Positions 3,751-5,704 of a stretch of 35,817 bases of DNA are shown in pieces (within the stretch, counting starts at the first letter, position 1; each line of letters begins with the position of its first letter). Both the position numbers and the translations under genes were made by a program. The notes beneath the pieces are model-generated. The model did not search any database and was not told the origin of the DNA. It was given only the letters and a program-made list of their open reading frames with translations. The DNA comes from a virus, in IMG/VR virus record IMGVR_UViG_3300030410_000009, positions 1-35,817 of that record. One strand, given 5' to 3'.

Positions 3751-4127
3751 AGACACTTATATACCCACTTTACAATTCAATAAGTGAGTCGTACGGTGAT
3801 GCAACACTGAATTTAGAAGAAAAACAATTACAAGAAAAGTATTTAAAAATATTAAAAAATATCATGGTAAAGACAAATGCGGTAATTCAATTTATGGTTA
3901 AGAATCCAGAAAATGGCAAATTTTATGTTTATGAAAAAGAACTAGATTTTATTCCTTCAGTTGGATTGGATATACAAAAACCAATTAGTAATAAAATACA
4001 TCGTGTCAGACATGATGGAGAAAGATATATTGCACAAATCGAAGCTGTTTTAGAACCTACAGACATGGCAAATTTTGATTATTATGCTAAAAATGGATTT
4101 ACTGAAATTAAGGTTTTCAACTTGTAA
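3747..4127 (+). CDS. Hypothetical protein in the lysis region
   Basis: This is a soluble-looking 126-residue protein without signal peptide or membrane span. The N-terminal half is a charged helix with NLEEKQLQEKYLKILKN, and the C-terminal half looks mixed alpha/beta. Start and stop overlap or nearly abut neighbours (ATGA overlap with the upstream gene, 9-base gap downstream), so it belongs to the lysis transcript. No family was recognised. Confidence 0.6.
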   Translation: MKTLIYPLYNSISESYGDATLNLEEKQLQEKYLKILKNIMVKTNAVIQFMVKNPENGKFYVYEKELDFIPSVGLDIQKPISNKIHRVRHDGERYIAQIEAVLEPTDMANFDYYAKNGFTEIKVFNL

Positions 4128-4825: not shown

Positions 4826-4935
4826 GTTGCTGTTATTATTTTGAAGTAGTTTTAAATCTAATTGGCTTCAAAAGAAAATAAACAAAGAACACTTGTCAGT
4901 CAATAAAGAAACAAAAGAAAAAGCCCCCTGAAAAA

Positions 4936-4992
4936 CAATATTGCCCGACTAGGTTATCAAATGAGCCTAATCAATTTACCTGATCCAATATT
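4936..4992. other. Imperfect stem-loop in the 4826-5170 non-coding stretch
   Basis: AATATTG (4937-4943) can pair with CAATATT (4986-4992), and shorter inner complements (TAGG/CCTA) lie between them. This is the only structure found in the gene-free stretch besides the terminators at 5034-5069 and 5077-5100. The AT-rich composition makes such pairings easy by chance, so this is a weak call. Confidence 0.25.
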
Positions 4993-5028: not shown

Positions 5029-5069
5029 TGCAAAAAGCCTGAATGTAGGACTAGTACATTACAGGCTTT
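5029..5069 (-). terminator. Rho-independent terminator for the leftward transcript
   Basis: On the minus strand, AAAGCCTG pairs with CAGGCTTT (outer arms 5063-5069 and 5034-5040), and the pairing continues as TGTA/TACA with one bulged base. It is followed by a T run (complement of the A run at 5032-5036) and more T-rich sequence. It lies about 100 bases past the stop of the only leftward gene (5171-5374), the expected place for its terminator. The hairpin is symmetric and may also act on the other strand. Confidence 0.7.
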
Positions 5070-5437: not shown

Positions 5438-5629
5438 TAAATGAGGTTGGAATCGAACCAACATGCAATTATTTACGCTTAGCTAACACTCTTTACGAGG
5501 ACAATAGTTAATTATTAATGCGTAATTTGTTTGGTGGGATCAGATTACCTGTTTACTTAGCTTATATACACTGCTTCACGGCACACCAATTGCTTTACTA
5601 TATAACCATTTCCATTCTGGCACTCATTC
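5438..5629 (-). ncRNA. tRNA-like structured RNA with a ~120-nt insertion where the anticodon arm should be
   Basis: On the minus strand, GTTGG-TTCGATT-CCAAC (5462-5446) is a textbook T arm with all invariant bases. It is followed by CTCATTT (5445-5439) and a discriminator A. GAATGAG at 5629-5623 pairs with CTCATTT over 7 bp (one terminal G-U). After it come U8 and a D-arm-like CCA / GAATGGAAA / TGG containing the paired GG. Between the two tRNA halves are about 120 bases with their own stems: TTGGTG/CACCAA and TTACGC/GCGTAA. No normal 7-base anticodon loop is visible and CCA is not encoded. Possible readings are an intron-bearing or split tRNA, a minimal tmRNA-like RNA, or a tRNA mimic. It lies about 30 bases inside the predicted leftward transcript. 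Confidence 0.5.
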
Positions 5630-5657: not shown

Positions 5658-5688
5658 CAAATATACACAAGTACTTTGTAATTACAAA
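5658..5688 (-). promoter_or_regulatory. Leftward Bacteroidota-type promoter
   Basis: Read on the minus strand, TTTG (5688-5685), 19 bp, then TATATTTG (5665-5658) exactly match the Bacteroidota housekeeping consensus TTTG / TAnnTTTG. Transcription would start near 5652 and run through the tRNA-like RNA into the 67-residue gene. It interleaves with the rightward promoter at 5675-5704. Confidence 0.75.
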
Positions 5689-5704
5689 TAAATTACTAAC
5701 TTTG
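5675..5704 (+). promoter_or_regulatory. Rightward Bacteroidota-type promoter for the early region
   Basis: TTTG (5675-5678), 18 bp, then TAACTTTG (5697-5704) match the TTTG / TAnnTTTG consensus. The start codon of the next gene is at 5727, giving a short leader. Its -33 element lies inside the leftward promoter, so the two probably compete. Confidence 0.75.

Follow-up and report, generated by a model that had tools for sequence, protein, structure and literature searches.

A tRNA-like RNA with no recognizable anticodon arm in a Bacteroidota phage, possibly a non-decoding tRNA mimic of a kind recurring in phages

A Bacteroidota phage carries, in its divergent control region, a small RNA gene whose product resembles a tRNA at both ends and not in the middle. 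There is strong support that the ends of the RNA fold into the acceptor, D and T arms of a tRNA, with the nucleotides that hold the tRNA elbow. This tRNA-like body is conserved by compensating changes, and no anticodon arm was found. Our tentative reading, to which we give slightly less than an even chance, is that the RNA is a non-decoding tRNA mimic, probably serving to decoy the host's tRNA-acting factors. The phage is the virus record IMGVR_UViG_3300030410_000009; the whole record (35,817 nt) was analysed and is called the window below.

The tRNA-like RNA is on the minus strand (Table 1). A sequence-only reading of the locus had pointed to a 7-bp acceptor stem with U8, a D-arm-like hairpin and a fully paired T arm, and all of these are present. 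The acceptor stem has 7/7 pairs, including one G-U at 1:72. U8 and G9 lie between the acceptor strand and the D arm, which also has the class-II nucleotides G13/A22. Combined with the T loop UUCGA, U8 and U48, the letters of the D arm make up the set that keeps a tRNA elbow together. A strict descriptor, which demanded a 7/7 acceptor, U8, a GG-bearing D arm and a T arm without mismatches, had this RNA as its single match in the window and matched 0 of 1500 dinucleotide shuffles, ruling out a chance fold. The stretch from the D arm to the T arm, ending in U48, measures 143 nt, longer than the roughly 120 bases estimated before. Compared with a decoding tRNA, the acceptor, D and T arms and the elbow are there and the anticodon arm is missing; no 5-bp/7-nt hairpin with U33 was found in the RNA. 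Without an anticodon, it probably cannot take part in decoding. ARAGORN had no match at the RNA. Rfam gave nothing in the window at the gathering score, and three weak, unrelated matches near the RNA at E-values up to 10.

Table 1 Features of the tRNA-like RNA and its locus in the window.
Feature	Position	Strand	Basis or remark
Whole tRNA-like RNA, acceptor through A73, 192 nt	5438-5629	-	sequence, scan, syntenic L004 RNA
Acceptor stem, 5' strand GAAUGAG	5623-5629	-	pairs 7/7 with 5439-5445
Class-II (Leu-type) D arm CCA-GAAUGGAAA-UGG, with A14, A15, G18G19	5606-5620	-	
S1, 5' strand UUAUAUA, at the anticodon-stem position	5599-5605	-	
S2, 5' strand GCAAUUG, within the S1 loop (proposed pseudoknot)	5587-5593	-	
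S1, 3' strand UAUAUAA	5562-5568	-	
S2, 3' strand UAAUUGC, directly before A47-U48 and the T arm	5465-5471	-	
T arm GUUGG-UUCGAUU-CCAAC	5446-5462	-	perfect pairing
Acceptor stem, 3' strand CUCAUUU	5439-5445	-	A73 at 5438
Bacteroidota-type promoter TTG-N19-TATATTTG for the tRNA-like RNA	5658-5687	-	pattern match
Divergent promoter TTG-N18-TAACTTTG, rightward early genes	5676-5704	+	pattern match
67-aa ORF 3' of the tRNA-like RNA, without known family, missing from L004	5171-5374	-	
Hairpin UCGUU-GGACUAG-AACGG, common to the window and L004	5111-5127	-	read by eye; pattern scan
Probable terminator, a hairpin with one bulge, for the leftward transcript	5034-5069	-	read from sequence

The proteins recognized in the 35.8-kb window phage were a Mu-type portal, TerL, a tape measure, a phage lysozyme, an ERF annealing protein and a primase-helicase. 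Both promoters of the control region are matches to the Bacteroidota pattern, of which the window has ten on the two strands combined. The -7 box of the minus-strand promoter ends 28 nt upstream of the acceptor, which fits the leader of about 25 bases proposed earlier. A search found no relatives of the 67-aa ORF. A simple terminator scan found none in the window; the counterpart in the related phage L004 is found by scan. Ahead of the shared hairpin, positions 4867-4989 of the window are 78.6% identical to L004 and have no called ORF. A match to the GTTCTNGTNCAACGATTAT pattern in L083, in the other orientation, looks like a chance match.

The ERF protein of L004 is 68% identical to that of the window phage, and L004 has a 151-nt tRNA-like RNA syntenic with the window RNA. 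Its acceptor (AGUAAUG/CUUUACU) has 6/7 pairs, its D arm is GUG-GAAUUGGCAAA-CAC and its T arm ACAGG-UUCGAUG-CCUGU. The letters of the acceptor, D and T stems differ between the two phages, and the pairing is kept in all three. Acceptor pairing in relatives had been named beforehand as a point on which the sequence-only reading could fail, and here it held. In L004 the -7 box of the promoter is 6 nt upstream of the acceptor, so that the transcript would start at or near the 5' end of the tRNA-like RNA; a clear terminator follows 3' of the RNA, with no ORF in between. In L002, the closest relative by ERF, the covariance model described below found no such RNA and the neighbouring gene is present, suggesting that the RNA is probably accessory. 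A custom scan detected RNAs of the same kind in an Alistipes prophage (L087) and, as two copies, in a Sphingobacterium one (L156).

To place the window RNA among phage RNAs, we defined a Leu-type class by a class-II D arm, a 7-bp acceptor, U48, a T arm and at least 49 nt between the D and T arms. By this geometry the window RNA is a member. A DNA pattern (Leu-type D arm, 52–82 nt, T arm), in which the acceptor and U48 were left free, gave at least 120 matches in viral contigs. Among the matches listed, 98 of 120 had an acceptor stem of 6–7 out of 7 pairs at the tRNA position, and 67 distinct acceptor pairs averaged 6.87/7 with their own partner versus 3.63/7 with a swapped one. A formal count of pairs over 60 sequences gave a covariation score of 0.717, versus 0.164 in shuffles, but this set had been chosen for 7/7 acceptors, so the 98/120 is the fair figure. 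Position 48 was U in ~97% of the A15 class and C in ~96% of the G15 class (matches listed), a correlation expected from the Levitt tertiary pair of a real tRNA core. The pattern matched in 3 of 395 Bacteroidota genomes, hence the class looks mainly viral. That the tRNA-like design recurs in many phages, with a wide but patchy distribution, is strongly supported.

The surroundings of the class members would fit another function too. RNase P and 3' tRNA nucleases might cut the fold and thereby shape a polycistronic transcript. Among the members listed, 48 of 71 are within co-directional gene runs, which fits an mRNA processing element too, and 19 of 71 are ≤60 nt from a downstream ATG. In the window, the 67-aa ORF starts ~64 nt 3' of the RNA. 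In L004, however, promoter, RNA and terminator stand alone, and for processing a plain tRNA fold would suffice, which leaves the long middle unexplained. We regard such an element as improbable.

The Leu-type RNAs of L174, L175, L180, L245 and L270, found by the pattern alone, share with the window RNA the proximity of an ERF/Rad52-type annealing gene. In L161, L176, L181, L204 and L274, hairpins with five covarying pairs, an invariant GAAAGA loop and TTGAC/TGAC in front end a few nt upstream of the tRNA-like RNA. In L217 (1522-1951) a group I intron contains a Leu-type tRNA-like RNA, located between its P7 and P3' segments, and in L231 (3138-3590) a Leu-type tRNA-like RNA comes immediately after a phage tmRNA. 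Tandem T arms, the second with a pairing acceptor, lie upstream of an ERF gene in L017 (2240-2340), as another odd tRNA-like RNA.

A covariance model (R1) was built from 60 Leu-type RNAs, with the window, L004, L087 and L156 left out of the training. It scored L087 with 64 bits, the two copies in L156 with 56 and 55 bits, and L004 with 42.7 bits over the full length. The window RNA reached 19.3 bits in its 3' part only, mostly the T arm, a score within reach of ordinary tRNAs, so that geometry and the L004 synteny are what place it in the class. Cultured phages gave R1 matches too: in Bacteroides phage BF1-TP2 (69.5 bits), where the match overlaps gp8, annotated as a hypothetical gene; in phage PJN03 (53.8 bits), within an unannotated gap; and in Lactobacillus phage Lb (33.6 bits). 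A copy in Lactobacillus phage SA-C12 was found by the custom scan. A covariance search with a model from related phages had been proposed together with the first reading, and it recovered L004, L087, L156, BF1-TP2 and PJN03. The gp8 of BF1-TP2 (L410:3787-3951) overlaps the full length of the RNA (3829-3943 of PQ571263) and may be no gene. A 57-nt tRNA-like RNA lacking any anticodon arm is present in Lactobacillus phages (L083:4321-4377, L405:2910-2966, L407:1505-1561); Rfam calls it tRNA with 41-47 bits.

Sequence searches of phage records with the window region, two class members and L156 gave no match, probably due to fast divergence of the middle. Rfam and ARAGORN miss or mislabel the Leu-type anticodon-less RNAs. 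No such class was found in Rfam 15 or in the literature searched, where the coverage of subscription journals was small, and a prior description is possible. The class would belong to a known kind, the non-decoding tRNA mimics.

Phages often carry tRNA 3' ends at their attachment sites, and several of the Lactobacillus phage copies look degenerate. The window RNA could accordingly be a decayed tRNA gene or the attachment-site remnant of a host tRNA. Against such a relic, L004 and the 67 acceptor pairs preserve the pairing while the letters change, both halves of the RNA are present, and no integrase was found among the window proteins scanned. We consider this origin very improbable.

An intron-bearing tRNA was among the first proposals for the window RNA, and it was not borne out. 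Deletion of any insert brought back an anticodon arm with no more success than in shuffled sequences: 250 of 500 shuffles equalled the window RNA, and for 91 related Leu-type RNAs (matches listed) the mean score was 9.78, versus 9.73 for the shuffles. Group I introns are much longer than the insert, and Rfam matched no group I core or other intron in its 143 nt. Splicing of a genuine tRNA by some unrecognised route might still be considered, since the L004 RNA has a possible anticodon-like arm (CCUCC-UUGUCUC-GGGGG) and since insert removal restores such arms in a parallel set of RNAs. These were found in a control scan for the ordinary type-I D arm, with spacing as for the Leu-type. In 27 of the 76 type-I RNAs listed, removal of an insert, mostly after nt 28/29, gave a near-perfect tRNA with perfect anticodon arms, versus 0.5% in shuffles, and in many the removable insert was ~40–55 nt. 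With neither the window RNA nor the Leu-type class surpassing shuffles in the deletion tests, we think a spliced tRNA quite improbable, more so than a processing element.

The type-I RNAs probably have a link to the bacterial Y RNAs. A Ro60/TROVE gene was present at 27 of 81 type-I loci, mostly <700 nt away, versus 0 of 98 Leu-type loci (matches listed for both), and the ACAGCAA motif recurs in the type-I class. The Ro60-adjacent loci include L289, L290, L292, L294, L320, L326, L345, L348, L352, L369 and L373. Possibly, the type-I RNAs are Y RNAs embedded in tRNA genes. We rejected a Y RNA identity for the window RNA: in contrast with the type-I class, Ro60 genes were found neither in the window nor in L004, although the host might have one.

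The middle of the window RNA had been described as having its own stems. As nested stems these did not hold up, the nested-only fold of the 143 nt being no better than shuffles (z = +0.74), but crossing helices stand out. S1, at the anticodon-stem position, and S2, which joins the S1 loop with the strand preceding the T arm, give 7 + 7 bp, equalled by 6 of 300 shuffles. Among the matches listed, 24 of 91 Leu-type RNAs have crossing S1/S2 helices, compared with a mean of 6.7 and a maximum of 13 in 20 shuffle sets. Some subfamilies have compensating changes (L274/L168, L175/L180, L271/L172, L263/L223). Over automatic alignments the covariation support was thin, and a pseudoknot in the middle is at best plausible.

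Across the Leu-type class the middle is much more variable than the tRNA arms, which would also suit a tRNA-scaffolded regulatory RNA. There, the fold would give processing and stability and the 143-nt middle would do the work, by antisense pairing or protein binding, setting early or immunity gene expression like the C4 RNA of P1/P7 or the CI RNA of P4. The location between the divergent promoters of the control region agrees with such a role, and phage M3 and C4 RNAs are established RNase P substrates (PMC11143913). On the other hand, no motif common to the middles of the class was found, and the closest relative, L002, has the neighbouring gene and shows no such RNA. A regulator of this type is, in our opinion, rather unlikely, with more in its favor than a processing element or a spliced tRNA.

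Of the three options raised initially (intron-bearing tRNA, tiny tmRNA-like RNA, tRNA mimic), the mimic is the one that fits. As a mimic, the window RNA would be a short non-coding RNA transcribed leftward from a promoter of its own within the divergent control region. Host RNase P, CCA addition and T-/D-loop modification would treat it as a tRNA, and the predicted result is a stable RNA unable to decode. It may then decoy, or compete for, the host factors binding the tRNA elbow or acceptor end, above all defence enzymes that attack tRNA; of this last step we are less sure. Having no anticodon, the mimic could not be inactivated by anticodon nucleases. The decoy idea has a precedent, as competitive inhibition of an anticodon nuclease has been suggested for the tRNA-like domain of YrlA (PMC7790460).

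For the class as a whole we put forward, with some reserve and as possible rather than probable, a widespread unnamed family of phage RNAs. Its members would be three-dimensional mimics of tRNA-Leu without an anticodon, with a hypervariable, often pseudoknotted core. They would be accessory, and would keep host factors that bind tRNA occupied or lead them astray, tRNA-attacking defences among them. If true, phages have a large hidden set of RNAs that look like tRNAs, do not decode, and are dropped or mislabelled by standard tRNA finders. This would bear on why phages carry tRNA genes, on how they face tRNA-targeting defences, and on the origin of Y RNAs and other tRNA mimics. The cultured carriers BF1-TP2, PJN03, Lb and SA-C12 make the reading testable now.

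Among known systems, phage tRNA-Leu has the same class-II D arm, T arm, A73 and acceptor as the window RNA, but ~36 nt between the D and T arms, whereas the window RNA has 143 nt and no anticodon arm. The tmRNA also has tRNA-like ends around a middle with a pseudoknot, which for the window RNA is only proposed. The D region of tmRNA is unpaired, however, and tmRNA contains a tag ORF and binds SmpB. The window RNA has a paired class-II D stem, and neither ARAGORN nor Rfam matched it to tmRNA; the tiny tmRNA-like RNA suggested before is not supported. The C4 RNA of P1/P7, the CI RNA of P4 and the M3 RNA of phi80 are phage non-coding RNAs handled by tRNA enzymes, as proposed for the window RNA. 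C4 and CI lie in immunity regions. None of the three is known to combine acceptor, D and T arms, and the window RNA had no Rfam match to them.

Bacterial Y RNAs are known as Ro60-bound tRNA mimics; one of them, YrlA, is a non-coding RNA of 90–150 nt in which one domain resembles the acceptor, D and T arms of a tRNA (PMC8394870). Both YrlA and the window RNA have a tRNA-like body without decoding. The ends of YrlA pair into a Ro-binding stem, whereas those of the window RNA form the acceptor stem, and the window class has neither the ACAGCAA motif nor an Rfam YrlA match. The tRNA-like structures of plant RNA viruses are viral tRNA mimicry as well, partly by means of a pseudoknot, as proposed for the window RNA. 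These structures are the 3' end of a genomic RNA, while the window RNA would be a separate transcript of a DNA phage.
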